Part shown: positions 1,680-35,927 of the stretch, piece after piece
How positions within the stretch are numbered: position 1 is the stretch's first letter
Layout: each line of letters opens with the position of its first letter
From: Methanobacteriota archaeon
GTDB taxonomy: Archaea; Thermoplasmatota; Poseidoniia; Poseidoniales; Poseidoniaceae
Direction: 5' to 3'
Length of the DNA stretch: 38,988 nucleotides
NCBI GenBank assembly: GCA_002722135.1
Contig: PBKJ01000012.1
Coordinates: forward strand, 39,902 to 78,889
Notes under the pieces: model-generated
Seen by the model: only the letters and a program-made list of their open reading frames with translations
The model's database searches: none
Told to the model about the DNA's origin: nothing
Position numbers and translations under genes: made by a program

Positions 1680-2147
1680 TCAGATGTAGATCCGTCCGCG
1701 CTTGCGGAACACGTGCCAGACGCCGAGCGTCATGATGGAGAAGAAGGCCGCGAGCACGAGCAGGCGGCTGATGGCGGTGCTGAGGTCGCCGTCGGCAGTG
1801 GCCGTGGCGTCGTTGATGACGAAGCCGCCGAGCGCCATGAACATGAACGCGACGTCGAAGACGAGGAAGATCAACGCGTACCAGTAGTACTGGAAGTGGA
1901 ATTGAATCATGGCGTCGCCGACGGGTTCCGAGCCGCATTCGTACGTGGAGAGGCGTCGAGGGTAGAGGCTGTGGTCGGCCTCGTAGCCTTCCAACAGGTA
2001 CGAGGTGGTCTTGTGCGGCTGAGAGCGGTCCGTTCGCGGGCGAACGAAGTACGAGGTGAGGAAGGCGCCGAAGGGGACAAGGAAGCCAACCAGCGTCATC
2101 AGTCCGACCGCGAGATAGGCATCGGTCACCGTGGTCACGTCGGTCAT
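1680..2147 (-). CDS. nuoA: NADH-quinone oxidoreductase subunit A
   Basis: This is a small membrane subunit that links the peripheral and membrane arms of complex I. The 155-residue protein has three predicted membrane helices, at about residues 12-36, 87-110 and 124-146. It also carries the family hallmark loop YECGSEPVGDA followed by a FQYYWYALIFLVFDVAF helix. The cysteine in YECG and the acidic residue in the second helix are present. It is the first gene of the nuo operon, preceded by a 204-nt gap containing a perfect 18-bp palindrome (2229-2246). There is no obvious strong Shine-Dalgarno site at the ATG; GGGGTC lies close by. Confidence 0.95.
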   Translation of the reverse strand: MTDVTTVTDAYLAVGLMTLVGFLVPFGAFLTSYFVRPRTDRSQPHKTTSYLLEGYEADHSLYPRRLSTYECGSEPVGDAMIQFHFQYYWYALIFLVFDVAFMFMALGGFVINDATATADGDLSTAISRLLVLAAFFSIMTLGVWHVFRKRGRIYI

Positions 2148-21815: not shown

Positions 21816-21833
21816 TTTTAGGGAAGACGAAAT
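21816..21833 (+). promoter_or_regulatory. Conserved 18-bp element (copy 1), probable operator of the phnC-like operon
   Basis: TTTTAGGGAAGACGAAAT ends 25 nt before the ATG at 21859. It matches the other two full copies at all 14 non-spacer positions. The CGAAAT part lies about 28 nt before the start, where BRE/TATA would be expected, so a bound repressor would block the promoter. The transcript is probably leaderless. Confidence 0.65.
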
Positions 21834-21858
21834 CCGACAAAGCGTGGACATCGAAGCG

Positions 21859-22515
21859 ATGCTGTTCACCCGCGGGCTGTCCGTGGGATACGACCATGCG
21901 TTGGTATCGAACATTGACTTGGACGTCTTTCCGGGCGACATCATCGGAATCATCGGGGCTTCAGGAATCGGAAAAACCACGATTTTGAGGACCTTGGCCG
22001 GCTTGATCCCCCCGTTCCGAGGCAGCCTCGAGCACTCCCTTGTGAAAAACGGAGAATTGGGCTACATCCCTCAGCGGCTTGGCCTCGTTCGTCACGCTTC
22101 CGTTGAACACAACGTCGCCTTGGGAGCGCGGGCCACTGCACGCAAGCCGCCGGCAGGCACCTCGAATCGTCAATGGAAAGCAACGGTCACCCGCGAAGCG
22201 ATCAATGCGATGGGGTTGACCGAGAAAACCCGTGAACCGGTCCGGCGGCTCTCAGGTGGTCAACAACGCCGTACCGCCACCGCACGCACCCTTGCCCAGC
22301 GGCCTCGCATCATCCTCGCCGATGAATTTCTCAGTGAACTCGATGCAGAAAACGTCGAGATGGTGTTTGGCGCCATCCACCGGCTTGTGAAGGAAGACGG
22401 CTCTGCCTTGGTGGTGGTCGAGCACAACGTCGAGCGCGCGTTCCGGTATTGCACGCGGGTGCTTCGGGTTCGCGACGGTCGACTGCACCCAGTTCAAGGC
22501 GGTGAGAGCGAATGA
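21859..22515 (+). CDS. PhnC-like ABC transporter ATP-binding protein
   Basis: The cytoplasmic ATPase of an ABC importer, 218 residues from the ATG at 21859. An upstream reading frame exists but would place the 18-bp element inside the gene. Walker A is GASGIGKT (residues 33-40), the signature motif is LSGGQQRR (131-138), Walker B is IILADEF with D155 and E156, and the H-loop is VVVEHNVE. The overall length and the PhnE-type partner permease place it in the phosphonate/phosphite (PhnC) group. However, the helical region (residues 90-110, RKPPAGTSNRQWKATV) is unusual. It overlaps the permease start by 4 nt (ATGA). The binding-protein gene is not adjacent but lies 4.8 kb away at 27211. The true substrate is uncertain; see the findings on the shared operator. 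Confidence 0.88.
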   Translation: MLFTRGLSVGYDHALVSNIDLDVFPGDIIGIIGASGIGKTTILRTLAGLIPPFRGSLEHSLVKNGELGYIPQRLGLVRHASVEHNVALGARATARKPPAGTSNRQWKATVTREAINAMGLTEKTREPVRRLSGGQQRRTATARTLAQRPRIILADEFLSELDAENVEMVFGAIHRLVKEDGSALVVVEHNVERAFRYCTRVLRVRDGRLHPVQGGESE

Positions 22516-23420
22516 ACCGGGGCACCCTCAAGATAGGGCTGGTGACGTCCGGCCTGCTGCTGCTGACGGTGGTGGTCCTGAACGATTTGGCCGTGGGACA
22601 CTGGTCGCGCTTTGAGGGGGGATGGGACAACCTTCGTCGTCTGGTCACAGAAAGCCTCTGGCCACCGGATTGGACGGTCCTGAAGGCACGCAATTACCCG
22701 CCCTGTGAAGCTGCCTTTGGTTTCATGTGTTCCAAAGCCTACCTTGGGATGCTTGAGACCCTCAAAATGGCCTTCGTAGGAACCGTGATTGGTTTCCTTG
22801 GAGCCATCGTGTTGGCGCCTTTGGCAGCAAGCAACCTCGCGCCTTCATGGGTCGGAGGGCCTGCCCGCCTCCTTTTGGCCGGCATGCGCAGCCTTCCCAG
22901 CATCATTTGGGCCATCCTCTTCGTGGCCATCGTTGGCCTGGGGCCGCTCGCTGGCGTTCTCGCCATGGCCTTCTACACGGTGGGCTACCTCGGCAAACTC
23001 CAGTTTGAGTCCTTTGAAGGGCTGGCCAACGGCCCCATCGAAGCTGCCCGAGCCATGGGGATGAACCGAACGGAGACCTTCCTTTTCGTGGTCGTTCCTG
23101 AATCTGCGAACGGGTTGATCAGCCAACTGTTGTTCATGTTCGAATACAACGTCCGGCACGGCAGCGTGCTTGGGTTGGTGGGGGCAGGTGGCATTGGGTA
23201 CTACCTGTCGTATTACCTTGGATTCCTGCTCTATGACGCCGTGATGGCGCTCATTCTGGTCATTTTCGTGGTCGTGGTCGCCATTGAAGCCGTCTCACGA
23301 CGGCTTCGTTCCTTCCTCTCAGAATCCGATGACGTGCCCAAAGCCAGTTGGATCTCCGTCCTCATGAGCCCCGGCCGTGCCGCGGCGGCTGACGCCACGT
23401 CGACGGACGCTGAGGTATGA
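22512..23420 (+). CDS. PhnE-like ABC transporter permease
   Basis: An integral membrane permease of 302 residues with about six helices. The first is an N-terminal signal-anchor-like helix (LKIGLVTSGLLLLTVVVL). The core (LKMAFVGTVIGFLGAIVLAPLAASN, SLPSIIWAILFVAIVGLGPLAGVLAMAFYT) is that of the PhnE/BPD_transp_1 family. The EAA coupling loop is GPIEAARAMGMNRTETFLFVVVPES. RSLPSIIWAILF and VGAGGIG are strong PhnE-type signatures. The start overlaps the ATPase gene (ATGA), and the PIG-O-like gene follows after 9 nt, so all three form one operon. A cytoplasmic C-terminal tail of about 35 residues is present. Confidence 0.9.
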   Translation: MNRGTLKIGLVTSGLLLLTVVVLNDLAVGHWSRFEGGWDNLRRLVTESLWPPDWTVLKARNYPPCEAAFGFMCSKAYLGMLETLKMAFVGTVIGFLGAIVLAPLAASNLAPSWVGGPARLLLAGMRSLPSIIWAILFVAIVGLGPLAGVLAMAFYTVGYLGKLQFESFEGLANGPIEAARAMGMNRTETFLFVVVPESANGLISQLLFMFEYNVRHGSVLGLVGAGGIGYYLSYYLGFLLYDAVMALILVIFVVVVAIEAVSRRLRSFLSESDDVPKASWISVLMSPGRAAAADATSTDAEV

Positions 23421-23429
23421 GGTGGGAGG

Positions 23430-26018
23430 GTGAGCGAACGCGGCCTCACGGCCCTACTCATCGCCCTGATAACGGTGCCCCTGCTGGCCCACACGGCTCC
23501 CTACGTCTATGGCAATCCCAAGGAGCCGAGCACGGTCTTTGCTGCACCTGAAAACCACGAACCGCTCAGCGAAGGCGTGGTGTTGATCCTCCTCGATGGG
23601 GTGGGTGAAAGCATCATGCTTGACGAAGCCAAGATGCCCAAGTTGCACGACCGTTTGACCGGCAGCGCTGTGCTTTCCCTCACGACGGGACCCATCACCC
23701 TCTCGGCCACAGCGACGAGCGAGATGATGACGGGCGTTCCGAACGCGCCGGTTGATGGGTTCAGAAATTTCAGGTTGAGTCATCCAGGAGGCACCGACCC
23801 ATGGCTGAGTGCAGCGGAGGACCCGCGTTACTCCGTGGGCATGGTCGGCTCCTACGTCATGGGGAACCTCTACGACCCCTTCCCTGAGATCGAATTTGTC
23901 AACACGTTCGGCGGCAACGGCGACTACTACGAAGGGGACGCTGAAACGACGCGGCTGGGACTGGAATGGCTCGAAGAAAGACGGCACAACGTCATGGCTT
24001 TGCATTATTCTGGAACAGACAAAGTCGGGCACCATTGGGGCATTGAAACCGACATCTATCACGAAAAGTTGCTCGACGTTGACGGCCAAGTCGATGAGGT
24101 GCTCAACGCCCTGCCGTCGGGATGGACGGCCATCGTCACGGCCGACCACGGGATGACCTCAACCGGAAGCCACGGTTCGTCTGAGGCCGTGACGCGGGAA
24201 GTGGCCGCCGTGCTCATCGGCGCAGGGGTGCGTCAGGGCGTCACCCATGATGGGCACCAGCGCGACCTTGCCGCCCTTCTCCCAGCGTTGCTTGACCTGC
24301 CCTTCCCTGCCCAACTGCACGGTCAAATCCCGCTCGATGCGCTGGCCCTTCTTCCCGGGGAATCCGAACGGTTGGAGGCATGGAATTGGCAGGCGGCCGT
24401 CGAACGGGCCACCTTCCATCAGGTTCAGGACGGCGGTCCGCCGCTCAATACATCGACCATCGAATGGTCACGTGTCCAAGGCGATGAAGGCCTGAACAGG
24501 CCCACTGACGTGGCGCTTTCGGCCCTGACGTGGGCCGTGTTGCTCGGGCTTGCGGCCCGTTGGGCACATCGGCGATACGGCGGAGGCTGGTTTGGGCTGC
24601 TCGCGGGTGGTGCTGGATTGATCGTGCTCCTTTCCGCTCAAGCCTCCCTTGGTTGGTCTGCGATGGTCCCACGCGGCCTTGGAGCTGTGGCGGCTGCAGG
24701 GTTGACGCGTCTTGCGCTGGCGCCTGACGGAGCCTGGACGGAGGGGCATGCTCGTGCTGACCGCTGGGAGGTCGGTGGCCTGCTCGGACTGATGCTCCTC
24801 GTGCTCCTCTTTGGCGATGCGAGCCAAGCCATCGTGGTGGGGTGCATGGGAAGCGTGGGGGTGTTGGCGTTCAGGGCGGGGCAAAACCGGCCCTTGCCTT
24901 CGTGGAATGCTGCAGCGCCTGCCGTGGGGGCCGTGCTGGTGCTTCTTGCCGCATCCTATGGCAGCTTGAGGGTCTGGTTCGTGCTTCCGGTCTTGTTTGG
25001 ATGGGGCCTTGGCAGGGTTGTGGAACACCTACGAGAATCTCCATCGATTGGAGCCCTCGATTGGACCGCCGGCATGACCGCCATGGCTGCCCTCGGACTG
25101 CTGCTTCCTCATCGTCGAATCTTGGACGGAAACCTGTTGCTCGAGTTGGTACGGATGGATCCATTCGGAGACGCCGTTAGTGGAGTGTTCTCGTTGGGCA
25201 TCCTCGCCCTGACTGCTGGCGTTTGGACCTTGCACGTGCACGGGCGCATTCGCATGCGCCAAAATGCACTGATGCTCGGGATGTTGATCGCCGTCATGGC
25301 GGTTCGCTTTGCCAGGGCCACCCTCGTGGACTGGATGGCCTTGGCCGTGTTGCTGGTGGTGTACATCACGGCGGCCAGGGACGTGTTGGATGCGTCGTCT
25401 TCAGGGACGTTGCCCAGAGGCATGTTCGAGGCCGCGTTGACGGGCCACATGCTGTTGATTTGGGGGCCTTGGGCTGCCTTGAGCAGCCTGTGCGTGCTTG
25501 TCATCACCCCACGTTTGGTGAAGGCGATGGAGCGAAAGCAGGTCACACGGTACCTTTGGGTCACACACGCCGTGCTTCCGTGGGTGCTCGTGGCAACGTG
25601 GTGGACCATGCTCGGCCAGGTGGACGGCGTGCAAACGTGCCATGAGGGGTTATGCCCGTACCCCAGAGAACTCGATCCTGGAACCGTGGTGCTGAACGGG
25701 GGGTATGTGGGAGCCCGAGAGAATCCCTCCGACCAGTGGATTGGCATGATGGTGGTGACGCCGTTGCTGGCCGTCATTGGGTCCTTGTGCTGGGCGTTCA
25801 GCCACGCAGGTGTTGATCTGCGCCCTTACCTCACTTTGCAGGGGCTGCTCATGGTCGGCTGCTTGGCCACGTTGGCCTTTGCACCGTCCTATCCACGGTT
25901 GGTGTTTGCACTGTCCTACAACGCCCTCTTTGCCGCGTTGCAGGTGATGGTCGGCGCGGCAGTGGTCCTGCTGGTAATGCGGCAGGAACGAAGGCATCAG
26001 ATGGCGCTCACTGCGTAG
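23430..26018 (+). CDS. PIG-O-like phosphoethanolamine transferase / alkaline-phosphatase-fold phosphodiesterase with multi-helix membrane domain
   Basis: An 862-residue membrane enzyme with a GTG start 4-5 nt after GAGGTGG. An N-terminal helix leads to an outward alkaline-phosphatase-superfamily domain (about 45-340). Metal and nucleophile positions are visible: D56 in LILLDGVG, a Thr in GPITLSATATSEMMTG, D197 and H201 in SGTDKVGHHWG, D239 and H240 in TADHGMTSTGSHG, and H248. These closely follow the eukaryotic GPI ethanolamine-phosphate transferases PIG-O and PIG-G. Residues 360-855 form a long series of about 12 or more membrane helices, as in that family. Its reaction is probably transfer or removal of a phosphodiester head group outside the membrane. 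Co-transcription with PhnC/PhnE-like genes could mean it releases a phospho-compound or decorates a lipid or glycan. The substrate is unknown. Confidence 0.8.
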   Translation: MSERGLTALLIALITVPLLAHTAPYVYGNPKEPSTVFAAPENHEPLSEGVVLILLDGVGESIMLDEAKMPKLHDRLTGSAVLSLTTGPITLSATATSEMMTGVPNAPVDGFRNFRLSHPGGTDPWLSAAEDPRYSVGMVGSYVMGNLYDPFPEIEFVNTFGGNGDYYEGDAETTRLGLEWLEERRHNVMALHYSGTDKVGHHWGIETDIYHEKLLDVDGQVDEVLNALPSGWTAIVTADHGMTSTGSHGSSEAVTREVAAVLIGAGVRQGVTHDGHQRDLAALLPALLDLPFPAQLHGQIPLDALALLPGESERLEAWNWQAAVERATFHQVQDGGPPLNTSTIEWSRVQGDEGLNRPTDVALSALTWAVLLGLAARWAHRRYGGGWFGLLAGGAGLIVLLSAQASLGWSAMVPRGLGAVAAAGLTRLALAPDGAWTEGHARADRWEVGGLLGLMLLVLLFGDASQAIVVGCMGSVGVLAFRAGQNRPLPSWNAAAPAVGAVLVLLAASYGSLRVWFVLPVLFGWGLGRVVEHLRESPSIGALDWTAGMTAMAALGLLLPHRRILDGNLLLELVRMDPFGDAVSGVFSLGILALTAGVWTLHVHGRIRMRQNALMLGMLIAVMAVRFARATLVDWMALAVLLVVYITAARDVLDASSSGTLPRGMFEAALTGHMLLIWGPWAALSSLCVLVITPRLVKAMERKQVTRYLWVTHAVLPWVLVATWWTMLGQVDGVQTCHEGLCPYPRELDPGTVVLNGGYVGARENPSDQWIGMMVVTPLLAVIGSLCWAFSHAGVDLRPYLTLQGLLMVGCLATLAFAPSYPRLVFALSYNALFAALQVMVGAAVVLLVMRQERRHQMALTA

Positions 26019-27184
26019 ACGCCACCCGTCCAACTGGACACCAGAATGGCGCCGTCTTCCGCCACCGCCAAGCCCACGATGAACAGGTTCGTTGTGGCGA
26101 TAAGGGTGGATTCGATGCCCGAATCGCCGGGATGAGCCACCCAAACCTCGCCTGAGCAAAAGTCGCCGTAGAGGAACCCGCCGGTGGGCGCCAGCACGGA
26201 CGGCTCAAGCCATGGACCACCGAGAATGGAACAGCGGCCGTCCTCATGGCCGTAGGTCAAGACCGGGTCGACCAGACCCTCCTCTGGCTCAGTGAGCGGT
26301 GTGTCGCAGGGTGCGTCGGCCGAGAACGGCATGTGCCCTTCGCGTTCGTTCCATCCAAAATTGGTCGGATCATCCCACGACGGAATGTGGTTCACTTCCT
26401 CCCAACACCGTTGGCCAACGTCGGCGATCCACAATCCTCCGGTTGAATCTAGGGCCATGCGGAACGGATTGCGAAGACCATGGTGAAGCAGGAGCTCATC
26501 GTGGTCGCCGGAAACGTTGCTTGCGGGTACAACTGAACCGTTGTCGATGGAGAAGTGGAGGATGCCGCCAAGCAGCGAGGAGGTGTTTTGCCCGTGCCCG
26601 TAGGGGTCGTTGGAACCTCCACCATCGCCCACGGACAACAGGAAACTGCCGTCCGCCAACCTGATCAGGTCGGCTCCGTTGTGGTTGCGTTTGACCTGTG
26701 GAAGCCGCAGCACAACCTCTGGAACGGCGTCCAGACCTTGCTCAAGGTCGAGGACGGCCACCACCACATCCGACACGTGTGAAGGGTCGCAAGGGCCTGC
26801 CTCGACGTACACGATCAGGGCTTGATTGGTGCTTTCGTTGGCGTTCATGGCTTCGAAGGCAAGCAGGCCCTGTTCGTTGTGGCAGGTGCTCACCAATGAG
26901 GTCAGGTTGACCAAGATTTGTGCCTCGTTCTCTGCCCAACGAACGATGGTCCCGTCCAGCATGCTGACGATGACGTCGGCTCCAAGAGGAGCGATGTCAA
27001 TCACTGCAGCCGACGTCTCCAGACGCAGATCGCAGCTGAGGTTGTGTCCTGACGTGAGGTCACAACCGCTGATTGGCTCTGGCTCTGGCCACTCAAACGT
27101 TGGAGGAGATTCCTCCTCCGCAGGGCCGAGGCACCCGCTCAGCACGGGCAAGACCAGCATCAAGGCCAACACGAATGGGCGCAT
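25997..27184 (-). CDS. PQQ-type sugar dehydrogenase-like lipoprotein (GSDH/HHIP beta-propeller)
   Basis: A 395-residue exported lipoprotein. The signal peptide ends in a lipobox (LVLPVLSGC, C18). The body is a six-bladed propeller of the glucose/sorbosone dehydrogenase family, with segments DIAPLGADVIVSMLDGTIVRW, GDGGGSNDPYGHGQNTSSLLGGILHF, HGLRNPFRMALDSTGGLWIADVGQRCWEEVNHI, and TNFGWNEREGH. These match the PQQ- and calcium-binding GDGGxxxDPxxxxQ, RNPxG and NYGW patterns. Several family members do not oxidise sugars, so enzymatic activity is uncertain. It overlaps the PIG-O-like gene tail to tail by 22 nt. It shares the strand of the PhnD-like gene, 26 nt downstream, and is probably in the same transcript. 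Confidence 0.82.
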   Translation of the reverse strand: MRPFVLALMLVLPVLSGCLGPAEEESPPTFEWPEPEPISGCDLTSGHNLSCDLRLETSAAVIDIAPLGADVIVSMLDGTIVRWAENEAQILVNLTSLVSTCHNEQGLLAFEAMNANESTNQALIVYVEAGPCDPSHVSDVVVAVLDLEQGLDAVPEVVLRLPQVKRNHNGADLIRLADGSFLLSVGDGGGSNDPYGHGQNTSSLLGGILHFSIDNGSVVPASNVSGDHDELLLHHGLRNPFRMALDSTGGLWIADVGQRCWEEVNHIPSWDDPTNFGWNEREGHMPFSADAPCDTPLTEPEEGLVDPVLTYGHEDGRCSILGGPWLEPSVLAPTGGFLYGDFCSGEVWVAHPGDSGIESTLIATTNLFIVGLAVAEDGAILVSSWTGGVYAVSAI

Positions 27185-27210
27185 GACTCTCCCTCGCCGG
27201 GTGCGTCCGT

Positions 27211-28332
27211 TCAGTTGGCGATTTTCTCATTAAAGTAGGCTTCAATCCCAGGCACGTTCTCGATGGAGTCACCGTAGGTCCCGAGGTGGGACTCGGTGTC
27301 AATGATGGTGAACCCTGGCGTGCTGAAGACGGCATCGAGGACGTCAAGGTCCGCTTGGCTGCCGCCGTCGTTTGGCCCGAGGCTCATCGTGCGGAGGGCT
27401 TCCTGCAGTGCGGTCACCTGTGCCGCGTCCATGTAGGCTGGGTTGAACATGACAGGATGGCTGGGGGCTCGTCCGAATCCGTCACCGCCGTTGGCGCTGT
27501 AGTTCACGCCGTGGAAATCCGCGGTGCTGTCGAAGTCGCCTTCGAAGCACCAGTCCTCGGGCGTCTCACCGCAGTAATCGGGAACGGTGGGGTCCTTGGC
27601 GAAGGAGATGTAGTCGGTGGCATCGCCGGTGCTGTGTTCAGCCAAGCATCGGAGGGAGCCGATGTACTTGTGATAGCGCGTGCCGCTGGAGGGAATGGAC
27701 GAATCCTCTGAGAAGTGGTTGCGGACCGTGTCGGTCAAGGAATCAATCGTATCTGGGTCACCGACCACTTCGACATAGCCGTTGCTGATCATGAAACCCA
27801 TCGGAAGCAGCATTCCGGAGCTGCCCAGGGCAGAGGTATGGCACGAGACCTTGCCTTCCATGAGGGCGAAGGGATCGGTGTCAGGGTCATCGTCAAGATC
27901 GGCCTGAGCGATGTCCGAGTCCACGTGGACCCATGCAATCGCCTTGTAGAAGGGGCGACCGTCTGCCTTCTGTTCAGCAGCGAGAACTTCAAGCCCGTGG
28001 GTTTGCCAGCTGAGCCATGCAGCTCCGCCGTCCATGAAGCCAATGTCAGCGTGTCCGAACCGCAAGGCCTCAATGGCGCCTGCAGCGCTGGTCACGGGGT
28101 AAATCTCAACCTCCATGTCCAGAAGTTCAGCAAGTCGGTCGGCAAACTCCTGGGGGTTTTCCTCCGTGTTCTGATACTCTTCTTTGGTCTCGAAGGCGAT
28201 CGTCAAGCAGTTGTCTTGGTCTTCGCAGGTTGGGAAGCTCACCGAGCTGGAAAGGCAACCCGAGAGCCCTGCTGAAACCATGACGAGGCACATCAGAAGG
28301 GCGTGAACAGTGGGAAGGGCGGCGCGAATCAT
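27211..28332 (-). CDS. PhnD-like ABC transporter substrate-binding lipoprotein
   Basis: A 373-residue extracellular lipoprotein. The signal peptide ends LMVSAGLSGC-like (C26 in LSGC). The type II binding-protein fold of the PhnD (phosphate/phosphite/phosphonate) family is shown by EALRFGHADIGFMDGGAAW, PFYKAIAWVHVDSDI, LMEGKVSCHTSALGSSGMLLPMGFM and the C-terminal TALQEALRTMSLG. It has an extra insert with cysteines (YIGSLRCLAEHSTGDATDY, YCGETPEDWCFEGDF) not typical of phosphonate binders. The usual serine/threonine phosphate loop is present only as SALGSSGM. It is separate from its probable ATPase and permease at 21859-23420 but shares the 18-bp operator with them. The promoter overlaps copy 2 of the element, and the mRNA is probably leaderless. 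Confidence 0.85.
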   Translation of the reverse strand: MIRAALPTVHALLMCLVMVSAGLSGCLSSSVSFPTCEDQDNCLTIAFETKEEYQNTEENPQEFADRLAELLDMEVEIYPVTSAAGAIEALRFGHADIGFMDGGAAWLSWQTHGLEVLAAEQKADGRPFYKAIAWVHVDSDIAQADLDDDPDTDPFALMEGKVSCHTSALGSSGMLLPMGFMISNGYVEVVGDPDTIDSLTDTVRNHFSEDSSIPSSGTRYHKYIGSLRCLAEHSTGDATDYISFAKDPTVPDYCGETPEDWCFEGDFDSTADFHGVNYSANGGDGFGRAPSHPVMFNPAYMDAAQVTALQEALRTMSLGPNDGGSQADLDVLDAVFSTPGFTIIDTESHLGTYGDSIENVPGIEAYFNEKIAN

Positions 28333-28354
28333 GGGCTGTCCAGAGGAGGTCTCT

Positions 28355-28372
28355 TTTTAGGGATTGCGAAAT
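28355..28372 (+). promoter_or_regulatory. Conserved 18-bp element (copy 2), over the phnD-like promoter
   Basis: TTTTAGGGATTGCGAAAT lies in the 139-bp divergent region. Read on the minus strand, its CCCTAAAA end (TAAAAA at 28359-28354) is centred about 25 nt before the phnD-like ATG at 28332. It can therefore serve as that gene's TATA box while also being the operator. Confidence 0.65.
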
Positions 28373-28379
28373 ATCCTGA

Positions 28380-28397
28380 TTTTCGTTCACCCTCAAC
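28380..28397 (-). promoter_or_regulatory. Degenerate fourth copy of the 18-bp element
   Basis: On the minus strand GTTGAGGGTGAACGAAAA agrees with the consensus at 11 of 14 fixed positions. It lies between the two full copies, in the opposite orientation. It may be a weaker co-operative site, or chance. Confidence 0.35.
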
Positions 28398-28423
28398 CAA
28401 GTTGCTAAGATGTCTTTTCTCAT

Positions 28424-28441
28424 TTTTAGGGCAAACGAAAT
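28424..28441 (+). promoter_or_regulatory. Conserved 18-bp element (copy 3), operator of the FEA1-haem operon
   Basis: TTTTAGGGCAAACGAAAT ends 30 nt before the FEA1 ATG. Its CGAAA overlaps the BRE position just before TTATAT, so repressor binding would exclude the TFB/TBP complex. Confidence 0.7.
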
Positions 28442-28471: not shown

Positions 28472-29734
28472 ATGACGAAGACCCTTCGTGCACTTGCCCT
28501 GACCCTGACTTTGCTGCTGGCCTCCCTCGCGGGCTGTGTCGCAGAAGACGAAACGAACGACGAAACTCCTGTGGACGAGAAGCCTGCCTTCTTGGATGCA
28601 TCCGACGCAGGTTACACCTACGCGTCCGACGTGGACAACCACCGTTCGCTGATGCTGGACCTCTGCGACATCAAGACCGCGGCCAGCGAAAGCGACTGGG
28701 ACACCGCCACCCAGATTTACATGAACGGCAAGAACGCTCAGAAGGACGACGGATCCTACCGAACGCTGGCCGGATTCGCTGCCGCCTCCGGCAAGAACCA
28801 CAACTACGACGCCTACTATGGTGTGGACGGCGCCATCGGCGGCCACATCATGCAGGCGCTGAACGGCGACGGTGACTTCGCCGGCACCTCGGACACCGTC
28901 CGCTACCAAGGCATCGCAAAGCTGACCGCCAACATGGGCATGGTCGGCTACACCATCCACGAGCTCAACGCCGCGGTGGCCAAGGCCGACGCCGGCAACA
29001 TCGACGACGACACGGGCGCGCCCCACAACTGGGACGAAGGATGGGCTTTCTTCCACGGACCGGATGAGCACTACGGTTGCTCTCCTGCTAAGGTCATGGA
29101 AAAGCGAGCCGCTGATTTCGGCACGGCCGACGCCGACGGCGTTGCTGCGACCTTCAAGGCCGCCGAGCAAGCCATGGTTGACGGACTCGCCGCCCTCCAG
29201 GCGGGCGACGAAGCCGGCTACGACGCCGCCACCGAGACCGTGATCAAGAACATCATCATCACCTACTCCCAGGCGACGCTGAAGTACACCTCGAAGATGG
29301 ACAGCACCGACAGCGCCGAGAAGTACCAAGCCGAAGGCTACGCCTTCTGGAAGACCATCGAGGCCTATGCCGCCCCATACACCGACGGTTGCTACAACAT
29401 GGCCGTTCACAAGGTCTTCATGATGGGCGACATCGACGCCTCGGCTTGTGACGCCTTCATCTGGACCAACGGCTCCATGGACAGCACCGGTACCAACGAC
29501 ACCTGCTACAACACCGTGACGCACCAAGTGTCCACGGACGTCAGCAACGAAACCGAGTGCGACGGCTACGCAGCCATGTACTTCCAGGACAAGTATGGCG
29601 CCGAGAAGATCAACGAGATCGTCAACCTGCAGGATGCGACCAAGCTCGGTACGTCCTACGACGTTGCACCTCACCTCGCACAGGTCTGGGCGCACTACGG
29701 CATCACTGCCGCAGACATCGGCTCGATGAGCTGA
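28472..29734 (+). CDS. FEA1/phytotransferrin-like iron-assimilation lipoprotein
   Basis: A 420-residue exported lipoprotein (LLLASLAGC lipobox, C22) with an acidic spacer after the cysteine. The body resembles the low-iron-inducible periplasmic FEA1 family: DSDWDTATQIYMNGKNAQK-like start (ASESDWDTATQIYMNGKN), YDAYYGVDGAIGGHIMQALNG, the helical TVRYQGIAKLTANMGMVGYTIHEL, and HNWDEGWAFFHGPDEHYGCSP. The histidine-, tyrosine- and aspartate-rich segments could bind iron with carbonate, as reported for algal phytotransferrins. The C-terminal part has paired cysteines (TDGCYNMAVHKV, DASACDAF, NDTCYN, ETECDGY). It heads the operon of surface protein, FecBCD-type transporter and HugZ, 51-57 nt before the next gene. 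A conserved operator and BRE/TATA lie upstream. The assignment is from remembered family motifs. Confidence 0.78.
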   Translation: MTKTLRALALTLTLLLASLAGCVAEDETNDETPVDEKPAFLDASDAGYTYASDVDNHRSLMLDLCDIKTAASESDWDTATQIYMNGKNAQKDDGSYRTLAGFAAASGKNHNYDAYYGVDGAIGGHIMQALNGDGDFAGTSDTVRYQGIAKLTANMGMVGYTIHELNAAVAKADAGNIDDDTGAPHNWDEGWAFFHGPDEHYGCSPAKVMEKRAADFGTADADGVAATFKAAEQAMVDGLAALQAGDEAGYDAATETVIKNIIITYSQATLKYTSKMDSTDSAEKYQAEGYAFWKTIEAYAAPYTDGCYNMAVHKVFMMGDIDASACDAFIWTNGSMDSTGTNDTCYNTVTHQVSTDVSNETECDGYAAMYFQDKYGAEKINEIVNLQDATKLGTSYDVAPHLAQVWAHYGITAADIGSMS

Positions 29735-29791: not shown

Positions 29792-32110
29792 ATGGAGCAA
29801 CGCGCCAAGCGCGCGCTCCTGCTCATGGTCGTCCTGCTGGGAGCAACACTCAGCGCGTCGGTTGCAGCAAGCGATGCTCCGGAGACCTACACCATCACAG
29901 GCCACGTCTTGCTCGAAAACGGGCAAGCCGCCGGCTCAAGCACGGTCCGTCTTGACGACCGCGGTTCGGTGATGACCGACCAAGGAACGTACGTCATCGA
30001 GGACGTCGCCCCGGGCCGGCATACGATCCGTGCATACTTCATGTCGGATGGACACGTTGCGATTTACCGAGAAATCATGGTCACAGGTGATGCATCGGTC
30101 GATTTCACCATCGGTCAAAACGTGGTGACAGCATCGGTTTCTGATCCTCAAGGAAATCCCTTGATCGGCGATCTTCGCACGCTTGGAGGCCCTTGGACGA
30201 GCGCTGATGGATGGACGGAGTTCGGACCGTTCCCAACCGGTACACTGGTCGAAGTCCAGGCATTGTTTGACGACGGTTCAACCGCCACCCATGCGGTCCG
30301 GTCCGACGGAGGGAAGATCGGTGAGCCCTCTCGAAACCACGTTCCTGTGACCCATGGGACCACAGGCGTCTACGGCTTTGTCCAGGATCAACTGGGGAAC
30401 CCTGTCGCAAACATCGACGTCACGACCGGGAGCCGCACGGCCACCACCCGAGACGATGGCATGTACAGCATGAATGGCCTCAGCACCACCGTGAACCACA
30501 CGTTCAGCTACACGCAACAGGGTCTGGAGGTGGCCGGAAACCAAAGTATCGTTCTCAATGGCACATCGGGATGGAAGAACCTCACGCTCGAACGGGCGTT
30601 GGTGCTTCCAGGAAACGTCTCTTTCACCACAGGAGCGAACGTGGTGTCCATGCAACCGTTCGTGATCGAGTGGACCACGGCCCAGCACGCCAACCGCTAC
30701 GTCCTCACGCTTGACGGGATTCCGATGTATGACGGCCCATCCACGGCCTTCACGTTCACGCCTCAAAGTGAGGGGGAACACCGATTTGGACTCGCGGCCT
30801 ACAACCCGAACGGTTCAACGGCAGCCTTCCAGGACCTGCTGATAATCGTCCTTCCCGAACAAGGCGAGAACGGGCATTGGACGGCTGGAATGCAGTGGAC
30901 CTACGATCAGACCTACACCCCTGCTGCTTCCGATGGCGTGCTTCGCCGAACCTACACCTGCCTCGGTACGGAAACCGTCTCGGACGCGTTCGGAGTCGAA
31001 CGTTCAACCTACCTTCTGGACGTCCATGACCCAAATTACCTGCCAGACGAACGATCCATGCGTTGGGTCGACGAAGAATCGCTCTTGGCCGTACGAAGCT
31101 ACTGGTCTGACGATCCTTCTTCATCGAATCAGTTCACCGATGCCAGCCTTGGCTGGACGTTCACCGACGAACAAGGCCAACCTTCCACCCTCATGAACGG
31201 ATCAACATCAGTATGGTTCAATCGGACCACAGTGATTGGTGTTCCTGGCCACCCAAACGGCTACGACGACACCAACAACACGATTTCCGTGGAAGAGGAT
31301 GTCTCCGTCACCACACCTGCAGGCTCTTTTTTGACCACGAAATACATCTTGACCGACGACGATGATGGTGTCGTCTCGTGGGAACTCTACTACAACGCCA
31401 CGGTCAGGAATTTCGTCAAGGTCGTTGACCGACTACCGGGTTCTCATTCTGACATGGTGGAGAAGGTGCTTGTCGCATTCGATGTGCCAACCGCTCCAGT
31501 CTTCATCATGGAATCCAGCCAAGTTTCGACACGGACCGTTGACCTTGAATGGGGTGCCTTCCCAGGCGCGGATCGGTATGTCGTCATCCATGACGGTGCC
31601 GAGATGTACAACGGCACCGCGACCAACCTGACCACCTCTGAGTTTGAAGACGGGACCTACACGTTCACCGTCGAGGCCATCATGGCCGACGGGCGACGAT
31701 TGGCCTCCGATGACCTGACGCTCGAAGTGACCTACGTCAGCCCAACCCCGACGTTTGATACGGGTCCAACCACGGCGGATGCAGAAGACGAAATTCAGCT
31801 GTCATGGTCGCACGATGCGGGGGTCACCTTCGTGCTTCTGCATGAGCGTCCTGACGGATCAATGGAGGAGGTGGAAGACCTCAACCTACGAACACACATG
31901 GCCGTCGTCGACGACGTCGGACGTCACCGGTTCCGCGTCAAAGCCATCGAAGCAGACGGGTCAACGTCTGAATGGTCAGAATCGGTCGTCGTGATGGTTG
32001 TAGAACCGAATGATGCCCCCGAACAAACCAACAACCCGTGGGTGATCATTGCCGGTGGACTGATCTTCTTGACCATCGGAATCCAACTGGTTAGGGGGCG
32101 CCCGTCATGA
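29792..32110 (+). CDS. Surface protein with carboxypeptidase-regulatory-like and FN3-like domains, C-terminal anchor
   Basis: About 772 residues from the ATG at 29792, which lies 8 nt after GGAGG; the ATG at 29786 is only 2 nt from that site. A signal peptide (ALLLMVVLLGATLSASVAA) is followed by carboxypeptidase-regulatory-like beta-sandwiches (YTITGHVLLENGQAAGSSTVRL near residue 30, VYGFVQDQLGNPVANIDVTT near residue 190). An FN3-like domain comes next, then a central unrecognised domain starting GHWTAGMQWTYDQTYTP (about 360-560). Two more FN3-like domains follow (VDLEWGAFPGADRYVVI, IQLSWSHDAGVTFVLL). The C-terminus has one membrane helix (WVIIAGGLIFLTIGIQLV). It overlaps the binding-protein gene by ATGA, so it belongs to the uptake operon. 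It may capture haem or an iron chelate at the cell surface; no binding motif proves that. Confidence 0.75.
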   Translation: MEQRAKRALLLMVVLLGATLSASVAASDAPETYTITGHVLLENGQAAGSSTVRLDDRGSVMTDQGTYVIEDVAPGRHTIRAYFMSDGHVAIYREIMVTGDASVDFTIGQNVVTASVSDPQGNPLIGDLRTLGGPWTSADGWTEFGPFPTGTLVEVQALFDDGSTATHAVRSDGGKIGEPSRNHVPVTHGTTGVYGFVQDQLGNPVANIDVTTGSRTATTRDDGMYSMNGLSTTVNHTFSYTQQGLEVAGNQSIVLNGTSGWKNLTLERALVLPGNVSFTTGANVVSMQPFVIEWTTAQHANRYVLTLDGIPMYDGPSTAFTFTPQSEGEHRFGLAAYNPNGSTAAFQDLLIIVLPEQGENGHWTAGMQWTYDQTYTPAASDGVLRRTYTCLGTETVSDAFGVERSTYLLDVHDPNYLPDERSMRWVDEESLLAVRSYWSDDPSSSNQFTDASLGWTFTDEQGQPSTLMNGSTSVWFNRTTVIGVPGHPNGYDDTNNTISVEEDVSVTTPAGSFLTTKYILTDDDDGVVSWELYYNATVRNFVKVVDRLPGSHSDMVEKVLVAFDVPTAPVFIMESSQVSTRTVDLEWGAFPGADRYVVIHDGAEMYNGTATNLTTSEFEDGTYTFTVEAIMADGRRLASDDLTLEVTYVSPTPTFDTGPTTADAEDEIQLSWSHDAGVTFVLLHERPDGSMEEVEDLNLRTHMAVVDDVGRHRFRVKAIEADGSTSEWSESVVVMVVEPNDAPEQTNNPWVIIAGGLIFLTIGIQLVRGRPS

Positions 32111-33210
32111 ACGAACCTCATCCAAGGAAGATGCTGGGTTCAGTCCAACTTGTGGCCATCCTGGTGCTTGCTTACGCGATGATTCACGTGGTCACGAACG
32201 AAACGGAACTTGCTGATGAGGGAGGCATCGCTGTCACCGACACCAGCGGTGAGGTGTTCACTTTTGATGCACCTCCTGACCGAATCGTGGTCTCGAACAC
32301 GTACGCCGCCACCGCCATGCGCATGCTCGACGCCGACATGGAATCGATCGTCGGGGTGAGTGGAGATTTCGAGGACAGCGAACTTTGGCCGGAACTCTCA
32401 GCTCGCCCTTGGGTGCAATTTTCTGCACATTCTGAAATTGACTATGAGGCCTTGCTGGACACGCGACCTGACGTGTACGTGGTCTTTGCCACCAACGGCA
32501 TGGTCGACACCGATGCCATCCGTGAGCGGTTGACTCCGCTGGGCATCGACGTGGTGGCGTTTGACTTCTACAAGTATGACGCCTTGCGCGAAGAGTTTCG
32601 GCAACTGGCCATCATGCTCGACCAAATGGAAGCCTATGATGCGCTGATGGGAGAATTCGACGCCATTGAAGCCACCATGAACGAGGCGCTTGGAGACCTT
32701 CGTGACGAGGACCGCCCCACCGTGATCATGGAACATCATGCTTCGCTCACCAGAGACCCTGTCGTGCTGACTGGAACCTCCCAATGGGACGACATCATCC
32801 GTATCGCAGGTGGAAGCAACGTCTTCAGCGATCTCCCCGGACACACCACGCACGTGGACATGGAAGCCATCCTGGATGCAGACCCGGACGTCATGATGTT
32901 TGACGGAATCACGTTCGAATTGGGTTACGGAAACAACGACCCAAACAGTGGCTGTCCAGAGCACTTTGATTTGATTGAGGGCCGCCCTGGATTCGATGCT
33001 CTTCAAGCCGTCAACAACGGTGAGTTGCATATTTTCTCAGGCGCGTTCGCCGGCCCGATGATGATTCATGGGCTTCCGTTCATCGCCGAACAATTCCACC
33101 CAGAACGCTTCGAAGAAGGCAGTGGTGAGGCCTCATTGGACGCATTTTTCGAAGACCACTTCGATCTACAGCGGACCGGCACCTTCCTGTGCACCGTTGG
33201 AGGCGAATGA
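32107..33210 (+). CDS. FecB/BtuF-type periplasmic-binding protein (haem, siderophore or cobalamin)
   Basis: A 367-residue binding protein of the type III (helical-backbone) class that serves FecCD/BtuCD permeases. The N-terminus has a hydrophobic helix (VQLVAILVLAYAMIHVV) without a lipobox, so it is probably a membrane-tethered form, unlike the lipoproteins elsewhere in the window. Family marks include PDRIVVSNTYAATAMRMLDA, VGVSGDFEDSELWPEL, IDYEALLDTRPDVYVVF, DDIIRIAGGSNVFSDLPGHTTHVDMEAILDADPDVMMF, and the C-terminal GLPFIAEQFHPERFEE. The substrate cannot be decided from sequence alone, but the HugZ gene in the operon favours haem or another iron compound. It overlaps the surface-protein gene (ATGA) and is followed by the permease after 1 nt. 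Confidence 0.88.
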   Translation: MNEPHPRKMLGSVQLVAILVLAYAMIHVVTNETELADEGGIAVTDTSGEVFTFDAPPDRIVVSNTYAATAMRMLDADMESIVGVSGDFEDSELWPELSARPWVQFSAHSEIDYEALLDTRPDVYVVFATNGMVDTDAIRERLTPLGIDVVAFDFYKYDALREEFRQLAIMLDQMEAYDALMGEFDAIEATMNEALGDLRDEDRPTVIMEHHASLTRDPVVLTGTSQWDDIIRIAGGSNVFSDLPGHTTHVDMEAILDADPDVMMFDGITFELGYGNNDPNSGCPEHFDLIEGRPGFDALQAVNNGELHIFSGAFAGPMMIHGLPFIAEQFHPERFEEGSGEASLDAFFEDHFDLQRTGTFLCTVGGE

Positions 33211-33211
33211 T

Positions 33212-34252
33212 GTGCCCGACGTGGTCGGTGCATACATCGAAGGTCAGCGAAAGCGCCTAGCCTCGCTCTTCATCGCCTCCGCTTTGACCCTCGTGGCCGC
33301 CCTTCTCTCAATGGGCTTCGGCTCTTCAGAAAGCCTGTCGATGGGCGCCACGCTCCGCCTCCTCTTCGGACTTCAGGCCTCAGAAGGGCTGCAACGAGAA
33401 ATCCTCCTCAACCTTCGCCTCCCGCGCGTGCTCGTGGCCCTCGCTGGAGGCGCTGCTCTCGCCATGGCCGGGACCATGATGCAAGGGGTGTTGGGAAACC
33501 CGCTGGTCTCCCCGTTGACGTTGGGCGTCGCCTCCGGCGCTGGGCTTGGGGCAGCCCTCGCCATCGTTCTCGACATCTCGGTGTTCGGGCAGGCAGAATT
33601 CGCCATCCTCGGAAATGCATTCCTCTTCGCCATGATGGTGGTTGCGATCATCATCAAACTCGGCGACATGTCCACAGTCACGGCAGAATCCTACATCCTC
33701 GTCGGGATCGCCATCACGTTCATCGCCGGCGCCATGGTCCAAACGATGCAATATTTTGCCACCGATGCGCAAATCTCTCAACTGACCCACTGGAGTTTCG
33801 GCAGTTTGTCCCGTCCGAGCCTCCAACACGCGTTGTGGATTTCGCTGTTCGTGGTGGTCATGCTTCCTTCGGGACTGGTCGCGGCTTGGGATTTGAACAC
33901 CCTCGCCGTCGGGGGTGACGATTTCGCGGCAGCGACAGGCGTCGATCCAAGGTCCACCCGACGGTCCGTGCTGATTCTTTCAGCAACGTTGACGGCGGTG
34001 GTCATTTCGTTCACCGGCATCATTGGTTTCCTGGGCCTCGTCGCACCACATGTGTCCCGTCTGCTGGTCGGCAACGATTACCGAACCTTGTTGCCGTTCT
34101 CTGCCGTCATGGGTGCAGCGGTCTTGCTTGTTGCCGACACCATCGGCCGGACCTTGTTTGCGCCCATTGTGCTCCCTGTTGGCGTCATGCTTTCGGTCAT
34201 CGGTGGACCGTTTTTCCTCTACCTCTTGCTGTCAAGGAGGGGCCGCGCATGA
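33212..34252 (+). CDS. FecCD/BtuC-type ABC transporter permease
   Basis: An integral membrane permease of 346 residues with about nine to ten helices. The GTG start at 33212 follows a GGAGG by 9 nt and begins PDVVGAYIEGQRKRLASLF; earlier in-frame starts would lie inside the binding-protein gene. Family motifs are NLRLPRVLVALAGGAALAMAGTMMQGVLGNPLVSPLTLGVASGAGLGA and GIIGFLGLVAPHVSRLLVGNDYRTLLPFSA, the classic FecCD signature, plus the late DTIGRT-like region (LVADTIGRTLFAPIVLPVGV). It would form a homodimer with two copies of the ATPase encoded next. It overlaps that gene by 4 nt. The substrate class includes haem, siderophores and cobalamin. Confidence 0.93.
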   Translation: MPDVVGAYIEGQRKRLASLFIASALTLVAALLSMGFGSSESLSMGATLRLLFGLQASEGLQREILLNLRLPRVLVALAGGAALAMAGTMMQGVLGNPLVSPLTLGVASGAGLGAALAIVLDISVFGQAEFAILGNAFLFAMMVVAIIIKLGDMSTVTAESYILVGIAITFIAGAMVQTMQYFATDAQISQLTHWSFGSLSRPSLQHALWISLFVVVMLPSGLVAAWDLNTLAVGGDDFAAATGVDPRSTRRSVLILSATLTAVVISFTGIIGFLGLVAPHVSRLLVGNDYRTLLPFSAVMGAAVLLVADTIGRTLFAPIVLPVGVMLSVIGGPFFLYLLLSRRGRA

Positions 34253-35076
34253 GCAACGTCTTGCTCAAAGCTGAGCGGCTGGAGTTCTCCTTTGGGGAAC
34301 GCTTGGTCCTCAATGGCGTTGATTTGACCGTGCAACCCGGTGAAGTGGTGGCCTTGCTCGGCCGAAATGGTGCAGGAAAGACGACGTTGCTGAAAATGCT
34401 GAACGGTTTGTTGACGCCTGCACGCGGAACCGTCATGCTTGGAAATCGAACGCTCGATGAACTCAGTTTGCCCGAACGTGCCAGACGTTCAGCCTACGTG
34501 CCTCAGAGCATCACAAGCGCCTTTCCAATGCGCGTCATCGATGTCGTGCTGCTCGGTCGTCGTCCATATGTCACATGGCGGCTCAGCAAGAACGACATCA
34601 AAATCGCGTCAGACACCCTGGCCACCTTGGGCTTGGACGCGTTCGCCTTCCGTCGGTTCACAGAACTGTCCGGTGGTGAACGTCAACAGGTGGTGATGGC
34701 CAAAGCGCTGGCTCAGGAAGCATCCTTGCTGTTGCTCGACGAACCCACAAGCGATTTGGATTTGAACAATCAAATCGGTGTGATGAAACGCATCCGAAGT
34801 GTGGTGGACGACATGGACCAGCGCGCCGCGGTCATTGTCATGCACGACCTCAACGCAGCGGCTGCATACGCCGACCGTGTGGTCCTGATGCATGAAGGGC
34901 GTGTTGAAGCGGTTGGCCGCCCTGAAGAGGTGCTGACCGAGGCCAATCTTGCCAAGGTGTTCATGGTGGAAGCCAGCATCGACGTGGCGCCGACTGACGG
35001 ACGCCTACGAATCCATGTGCACGACGAGGTCAGCGCCTCGGTCATGCACCATACAAAGCAAGGTGATGAACGATGA
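34249..35076 (+). CDS. FecE/BtuD-type ABC transporter ATP-binding protein
   Basis: The ATPase partner of the upstream FecCD permease, 275 residues. Walker A is GRNGAGKT (38-45, K44), the Q-loop is in YVPQSITSAFPM, the signature is LSGGERQQVVMAKAL (140-154), Walker B is LLLLDEPTSDLD (D164, E165), and the H-loop histidine is in VIVMHDLN. GRRPYVTW and the RAAVIVMHDLNAAAAYADRVVLM stretch are typical of iron-siderophore, haem and B12 importers. A strong AAGGAGGGG site precedes the ATG, which overlaps the permease stop. The C-terminal 30 residues (IDVAPTDGRLRIHVHDEVSAS) form the small extra strand segment seen in this group. Its stop overlaps the HugZ start. Confidence 0.94.
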   Translation: MSNVLLKAERLEFSFGERLVLNGVDLTVQPGEVVALLGRNGAGKTTLLKMLNGLLTPARGTVMLGNRTLDELSLPERARRSAYVPQSITSAFPMRVIDVVLLGRRPYVTWRLSKNDIKIASDTLATLGLDAFAFRRFTELSGGERQQVVMAKALAQEASLLLLDEPTSDLDLNNQIGVMKRIRSVVDDMDQRAAVIVMHDLNAAAAYADRVVLMHEGRVEAVGRPEEVLTEANLAKVFMVEASIDVAPTDGRLRIHVHDEVSASVMHHTKQGDER

Positions 35077-35927
35077 GCGACAGGACAACACAACAGGACA
35101 AGCGTGCTGAACAAGAGGCACACAAGGAAGCCCATGACGGTGAGGACCCCTCGACCAACGTTGCAGCTTGGCTGCATGAAACGCGAGCTGCGACCCTCTC
35201 AACGTTGGCCGTGAAGCCGGGCATCGAAGGATTCCCAATCGGATCGATTGTTCCGTTTGCCATCGATGAAACCGGCCGGCCGTTCATTTTGGTGGCGAGC
35301 ATCGCTGCGCACACACGCAACATCGACGCTGACCCACGGGCTTCCCTGTTCATTTCAGATCCTGAAGCCAAAGGCGACCCGCAATCAAGCTGGCGTGCGT
35401 CCTTGCTTGGCGAGATGCGGGTTGTGGCCGTGGAAGGTGAGGAGGTTGATGTGTCAGAAGAGCGAATCGACCGGGTCACAGCCGAAGAGCACGCTCATTT
35501 GTTGGCGCGGTACGTGGAACGGGTCCCTGCGGCTGAATCCTACGTGAAGGTGCACAACTTCAGTTTCTACCGAATGAGCACCATCGAACGCATCCGCTAC
35601 ATCGCGGGCTTTGGTCGCATTTGTTGGATCCCCGGTCGCCAATACATGGAAGCCGTCTCAGATGCTGAACTTGCAGAAGCAGCGCCCGGAGCCATCGAGC
35701 ACATGAACGACGACCATGTCGACGCCATGGTGACCATCGTCAAGGGCCATCGCGGCATTGACGTGGAGTCGGTGAACATGGTCGACCTCGACCCAAACGG
35801 CATGATGCTGGAAACGAACGAACCCCATCACCTGATGTACGTCTCGTTCGAGAACCGCATCACGGCTGATAGCATGCGGACAGAGATCATCAACAGCGTG
35901 GTCGCCGCCAGGAAGGCCATCGGTTGA
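35073..35927 (+). CDS. HugZ/HutZ-type haem-utilisation protein (PNPOx-like + DUF2470)
   Basis: A 284-residue cytoplasmic protein combining a split-barrel, pyridoxamine-oxidase-like domain (about residues 27-190) with a C-terminal DUF2470 domain (about 200-284). In HugZ and HutZ proteins this architecture binds haem and opens the ring to release iron. Visible marks are NVAAWLHETRAATLSTLAV, FPIGSIVPFAIDETGRPFILVASIAAHTRNI, ASLFISDP, GFGRICWIPG, and in the second domain EHMNDDHVDAMVTIVKGH, with histidines suited to haem ligation. An unusually charged 25-residue N-terminal tail precedes the barrel. It overlaps the ATPase gene (ATGA) and ends the operon, so imported haem would be degraded here. 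Other flavin or haem-binding roles of PNPOx-DUF2470 proteins are possible. Confidence 0.85.
   Translation: MSDRTTQQDKRAEQEAHKEAHDGEDPSTNVAAWLHETRAATLSTLAVKPGIEGFPIGSIVPFAIDETGRPFILVASIAAHTRNIDADPRASLFISDPEAKGDPQSSWRASLLGEMRVVAVEGEEVDVSEERIDRVTAEEHAHLLARYVERVPAAESYVKVHNFSFYRMSTIERIRYIAGFGRICWIPGRQYMEAVSDAELAEAAPGAIEHMNDDHVDAMVTIVKGHRGIDVESVNMVDLDPNGMMLETNEPHHLMYVSFENRITADSMRTEIINSVVAARKAIG

Follow-up and report, generated by a model that had tools for sequence, protein, structure and literature searches.

The closest described systems are those of the DtxR/IdeR family. In Saccharopolyspora erythraea, the IdeR/DtxR site has been redefined as TTAGGNNNNCCTAA, a sequence to which one dimer binds (PMC8464063, Marcos-Torres et al.). 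The same work placed the first natural TTAGGNNNNCCTAA site in a nuo promoter, reported that IdeR no longer bound once T3 had been replaced by G3 in all repeats, identified Pro39 as one of the two IdeR residues touching T3, and called the function of one-dimer sites open (PMC8464063). For archaea, DtxR-family regulons have been described by Leyn and Rodionov (2015) and for Idr1/Idr2 of Halobacterium, as cited in PMC11349517. The Poseidoniales (Marine Group II) rank with the most abundant archaea of the surface ocean and have no cultured isolates (PMC6336850, PMC10160649), which makes iron sensing in the order hard to study.

The Poseidoniales element analyzed here has a core identical to that of the S. 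erythraea IdeR site and the same 4-bp spacing (PMC8464063; review PMC10317159), and the two systems have in common a natural nuo-promoter site and iron uptake, ferredoxin and Nuo targets. In contrast to the S. erythraea site, the Poseidoniales box is archaeal, lacks the four-repeat 19-bp form, carries extra T/A flanks (TTTAGG..CCTAAA), and in one genus has one half that reads NCGAAA. The Idr1/Idr2 systems likewise set archaeal DtxR proteins over iron genes, going by the account in the citing paper, a likeness of protein family and targets. A description of an iron box in the Poseidoniales was not found in the open-licence literature.

Copies of the element at promoters

The features of the window, the whole analyzed stretch of 38,988 nt, are as follows:

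1680–2147, minus strand: nuoA, complex I chain 3 (PF00507, 3.4e-16), 3' of the palindromic box
2229–2246, no strand assigned: perfect palindromic candidate iron box TTTTAGGGGGCCCTAAAA preceding the complex I (nuo) operon; distance to the nuoA start (2147), 82 bp
21816–21833, plus strand: asymmetric candidate iron box TTTTAGGGAAGACGAAAT, phnC-like promoter (0 mismatches; kept in six genus genomes)
21844–22515, plus strand: phnC-like ABC ATPase (PF00005; NCBIfam phnC below cut-off)
22512–23420, plus strand: PhnE-like ABC permease (TIGR01097 above cut-off)
27211–28332, minus strand: phnD-like lipoprotein, single transferrin-lobe homologue (Phosphonate-bd and Transferrin Pfam matches)
28355–28372, plus strand: asymmetric candidate iron box TTTTAGGGATTGCGAAAT, phnD/transferrin-like promoter (0 mismatches; kept in six genomes)
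28380–28397, minus strand: degenerate site, TTTTCGTTCACCCTCAAC on the plus strand (3 mismatches; weak)
28424–28441, plus strand: asymmetric candidate iron box TTTTAGGGCAAACGAAAT, Fea1 operon (0 mismatches; kept in six genomes with NNTTATA)
28472–29734, plus strand: Fea1-related lipoprotein, first gene of its operon (PF07692; NF038033 above cut-off)
32107–35076, plus strand: siderophore/heme/B12-type ABC importer comprising a substrate-binding protein, FecCD permease and ATPase (PF01497, PF01032, PF00005)
35073–35927, plus strand: HugZ/HutZ-like heme utilization protein (PF13883, PF10615; TIGR04109 at 4e-14, below cut-off)

A first-pass annotation of the window had reported three exact copies of an 18-bp intergenic element. 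Pattern search recovered all three copies of TTTTAGGGNNNNCGAAAT with 0 mismatches (21816–21833, 28355–28372 and 28424–28441), and pattern searches over the 1.94 Mb of the genome in 27 contigs gave no fourth copy at 0 mismatches; the assembly is 92.5% complete with 4.1% contamination, and nearly all of the compared genomes are likewise incomplete. At ≤3 mismatches, TTTTAGGGNNNNCGAAAT had six matches in the window against 1.09 expected, a number reached in 0 of 100 shuffles. The hexamer TTTAGG/CCTAAA is confined, within the 39 kb, to the three reported sites and the palindrome at 2229. Across the window and the own-genome loci L014–L018 and L020–L022 (162 kb), there is strong depletion of CTAG (11 vs. 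100 expected), TTAG (24 vs. 83) and TTAA (17 vs. 66), which is why the TTTAGG sites stand out.

The flanking genes confirm the intergenic setting of each copy. The copy at 21816 lies between the end of a SpoU methylase gene (21781) and the phnC-like start (GTG 21844 or ATG 21859), in a stretch that is not coding since 1-nt indels flank the box among the six genus genomes; the other two lie between the divergent phnD-like (28332, minus strand) and Fea1 (28472) starts. The overlap with the core promoter reported in the first-pass annotation also stands, with distances to the start codon of about 10–30 nt. At phnC and phnD, TTTTAGG or its complement lies where a TATA box would be expected: ~26 nt 5' of GTG 21844 in the first case and, in the second, as CCTAAAAA on the minus strand, across the phnD/transferrin-like core promoter. 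At Fea1, the CGAAA of the right half is in the place of a B-recognition element (BRE), directly 5' of the TATA-like CTTATAT and ~24–30 nt before ATG 28472. The degenerate reverse copy at 28380 is present with its three mismatches and partly kept in relatives, as TTTCG-N6-CCTTAAC in the genus and GTTTAGGGCATCCTTAAC in two other genomes; it may be a third, weak site.

The first-pass statement that no other full copy exists holds for exact copies across the whole genome, though it overlooked the perfect palindrome TTTTAGGGGGCCCTAAAA at 2229, which occupies the same place in four genus genomes. This palindrome and the reported element have TTTTAGGG....C.AAA in common, the 2229 site being the canonical form, and the sharing of the left half and of the right-half register pointed to a palindromic operator.

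Conservation within the genus and across the order

Among nine genus genomes, TTTTAGGNNNNNCGAAA is present in exactly three copies in each of six and in 0 copies in the other three, while the reversed TTTTAGGNNNNNCGAAA control has 0 occurrences across all nine. All 18 copies are at orthologous promoters, one before the phnC-like gene and two in the divergent phnD/Fea1 interval, where the boxes are 69 bp apart in all six genomes, and the twelve fixed bases are unchanged at every site while the flanks have diverged. The occurrence of all three copies inside 6.6 kb could be taken as a sign of chance or of descent from a dispersed or mobile repeat, but the copies have only the short element in common, are absent elsewhere in the six genomes in which they hold orthologous positions, and have no counterpart in the reversed control; conservation rules out both origins, and the probability left to them is vanishingly small. 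Of the three box-less genus genomes (G016, G035 and G194), the Fea1 search covered G016 and G035, and both lack the gene.

Across the order, the element takes the form of a palindrome, TTTAGG-N4-CCTAAA. At ≤1 mismatch, TTTTAGGGNNCCCTAAAA was present in 59 of 194 order genomes, from both families, against only a handful of matches to the reversed control. When public genomes were searched upstream of Fea1, the core TTTAGGNNNNCCTAAA matched without mismatch in 68 of 79 loci and at ≤2 mismatches in 78 (shuffles: 0 exact and 14/790 at ≤2 mismatches; coding DNA: 0/79 at ≤2), with two boxes in most of these promoters. The phnC orthologues of the sister family have a box at −43 to −59, while in several other genera the boxes lie 1.2–1.4 kb farther upstream of phnC, consistent with a phnD-phnC operon, and many phnC loci had no box inside the stretch examined. 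Both the order-wide box and the 2229 box contain the 14-bp core TTAGGNNNNCCTAA, which bears out the DtxR/IdeR-like half-site suggested in the first-pass annotation; each site has two repeats only and is not the classical 19-bp four-repeat box.

The right half reads NCGAAA rather than CCTAAA in 18/18 genus sites, so that none has both halves intact, and this conserved asymmetry is what is new. A reading in which the operator is TTTTAGG alone and CGAAA is the BRE of the promoter, making the asymmetric unit an operator half plus a core-promoter element, draws on the Fea1 promoter, where NNTTATA follows CGAAA in 6/6 genomes at the right place for a BRE. However, the unit with its fixed 5-bp spacing also occurs at phnC and, inverted, at phnD, where CGAAA is not followed by a TATA-like sequence of the gene concerned, and other genera have CCTAAA or CCGAAA in the corresponding right half, the palindrome partner. 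A BRE rule was sought from TATA-like sequences of the own genome and none was obtained, because such hexamers are nearly absent from this GC-rich DNA (four in 162 kb). We regard the split into half-operator and BRE as quite unlikely. A single TTTCGG half is found in 16 of 129 order sites, vs. 85 that are fully symmetric, and its recurrence across the order makes the genus NCGAAA the extreme of a recurrent variant. Judged by sequence, the three reported copies are an asymmetric, genus-specific variant of the predicted iron box.

Target genes of the boxes

The boxes are located at promoters of genes for iron uptake or use. Neighbors of symmetric boxes include flavodoxin, the FTR1 iron permease, SufC with a NifU-like protein, ferrochelatase, glutamyl-tRNA reductase (hemA), ferredoxin, PhnD/transferrin-like proteins and, in this genus, nuoA. 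Flavodoxin is boxed in six genomes, including the own genome, in which the box is 44 bp before the start and the gene was recognized by eye and by similarity to a Pfam-confirmed relative. An obvious iron role is lacking for some boxed genes, among them those for TSP3-repeat proteins, an M28 peptidase and, in one genome, a rhodopsin. The boxed gene set is probably a genome-wide iron regulon. The scan of related genomes and adjoining genes thus found boxes at orthologous promoters with iron-related targets rather than at random genic positions or before housekeeping genes in relatives, an outcome that favors the first-pass reading. The idea of a regulator dedicated to the three operons was dropped once the order-wide palindrome appeared, as the three sites are a lineage variant of a box with many other targets.

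In many genomes, a small cysteine-rich protein without a Pfam match is encoded 10–30 nt 3' of a symmetric box (L016:9509-9859 in the own genome, L055, L056, L057, L062, L066, L068, L073 and L080), and this protein is a conserved candidate member of the iron regulon. The rhodopsin case is a symmetric box 61 bp 5' of a bacteriorhodopsin-like gene in one relative (L117:2058-2075; G151:C81:5857), which hints that iron state and phototrophy may be connected. A ferritin-like gene of the own genome, and of no other, is preceded by TTTTCGGGAGGACGAAAT, a copy with one mismatch and with both halves TTTCG (L018:7537-7554; G000:C19:15536); this gene was not counted as an iron-storage target, the order having no close orthologues (best, ~30% identical).

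The boxed uptake operons

The conserved promoter boxes support the first-pass proposal that the phnC-like, phnD-like and Fea1 operons are controlled together, presumably by one regulator of iron genes. The phnD-like protein has a lactoferrin match in the PDB (8e-11), and one of its relatives matches human melanotransferrin (1.4e-38), while in predicted fold it resembles PtxB about as closely, by E-value, as it does transferrin lobes. Residues D101, Y129, Y223, H292 and T166 are invariant in nine sequences (relatives at L139:2096-3073, L058, L065, L131, L133 and L063); by alignment with transferrins, we take the Asp, the two Tyr and the His to be the transferrin iron ligands and Thr166 the anion contact. 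Iron-box control of the phnD-like gene and of phnCE suggests a transporter for ferric iron rather than phosphonate. Besides its FEA1-related lipoprotein, the Fea1 operon encodes a FecBCD-type importer and the HugZ/HutZ-like heme protein, and it may serve heme in addition to inorganic iron.

A candidate regulator

The first-pass annotation had proposed a search for a co-occurring DtxR/MntR/Fur-family gene, and the own genome encodes exactly one protein matching PF01325 (L014:8139-8789; G000:C4:46138-46785), a 216-aa DtxR homologue with both the winged-helix domain (PF01325, 9e-19) and the metal-binding/dimerization domain (PF02742, 3e-18). The homologue is present in 184 of 194 order genomes. 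Searches for Fur (PF01475) gave no match in the own genome or in 54 of 60 order genomes, with controls detected, and no box is located at the dtxR gene itself. The ligands H82, E86, H99, C103, E106 and H107 are conserved; of the iron-type primary ligands, Cys (at the DtxR C102 position), Glu and His are kept, while Met10 is replaced by Glu. Thermoplasma acidophilum belongs to the same phylum as the Poseidoniales, and its IdeR (4o5v, 4o6j), of DtxR-type fold, is a Foldseek match with 20% identity when structurally aligned and a weak sequence match (2.9e-4). The best PDB fold match to the predicted model is IdeR. As for the C-terminal SH3-like domain, the model is beta-rich in that part and gives full-length Foldseek alignments, but with a high rmsd over the whole length.

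The box might instead be read by a regulator other than the DtxR homologue, such as an unrecognized winged-helix protein, with the DtxR homologue acting as an MntR-type manganese sensor. In favor of this reading, the curated models nearest to the protein, and one of its close structural matches, are manganese regulators (MntR, DR2539), and six Fea1-bearing MAGs, all incomplete, had no PF01325 match. Against this reading stand the match of the box to the single-dimer IdeR/DtxR consensus, the iron genes among the targets, the Cys at the C102 position, the lack of Fur in the own genome, and a recognition helix that is altered where genus members have lost the box, in two cases only: VSPASATEM in the box-bearing genomes and VSAAAASEM in the two members (G016 and G035) that keep a homologue but have no box and no Fea1, a suggestive change. 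On balance, a different reader of the box is rather unlikely. The closest curated MntR model (NF047407) scored 100 bits vs. a cut-off of 350, and because the curated models are nearer MntR yet far below cut-off, the metal is deduced from the targets as iron. Given those MntR models, manganese could conceivably be the sensed metal.

Proposed mechanism

The whole is best explained, and probably correctly so, by an operator of the DtxR/IdeR family governing Poseidoniales iron homeostasis. Very probably, a DtxR/IdeR-type iron-sensing repressor uses the box across the order, with iron-uptake genes turned on at scarcity, and at the uptake genes, where the box overlies the core promoter, it most likely serves as the operator of a repressor. 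We infer binding by the DtxR homologue, Fe(II) as the metal and repression at the uptake genes. One dimer of the 216-aa protein, activated by Fe(II) inside the cell, would bind TTTAGG-N4-CCTAAA or TTTAGG-N5-CGAAA; the bound box at the uptake genes would cover BRE/TATA and block TBP/TFB, keeping the phnC-like, phnD/transferrin-like and Fea1 operons repressed while iron is sufficient, and exhaustion of iron would release the protein and turn these operons on. A different regulatory mode is possible at nuoA, where the box is farther upstream.

The asymmetric half in the genus carries the same T3 to G3 change that abolished IdeR binding when present in all repeats, which counts against this mechanism. 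In our alignment, the Poseidoniales homologue has Ala and Glu at the positions of IdeR Pro39 and Gln43, and Ala in place of the T3-contacting Pro39 makes it plausible that the protein would tolerate G in the asymmetric half. That the conserved T-to-G half creates a second operator affinity class, controlling a combined transferrin-type and FEA1-type ferric uptake system and grading the iron-starvation response, is a tentative and somewhat doubtful proposal; more speculatively, the altered half would lower affinity, so that the uptake operons would be derepressed earlier than flavodoxin.

Implications for the Poseidoniales

Iron is a limiting nutrient, and a simple sequence rule now flags the likely Poseidoniales iron regulon in any metagenome-assembled genome. 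In field data, transcripts of the boxed genes can serve as markers of iron stress, and the box points a 'phosphonate' transporter toward iron. The Poseidoniales boxes are candidate natural one-dimer sites, the kind with a function left open in S. erythraea (PMC8464063), and an archaeal ABC importer of transferrin type with an iron box at its promoter is worth separate study.
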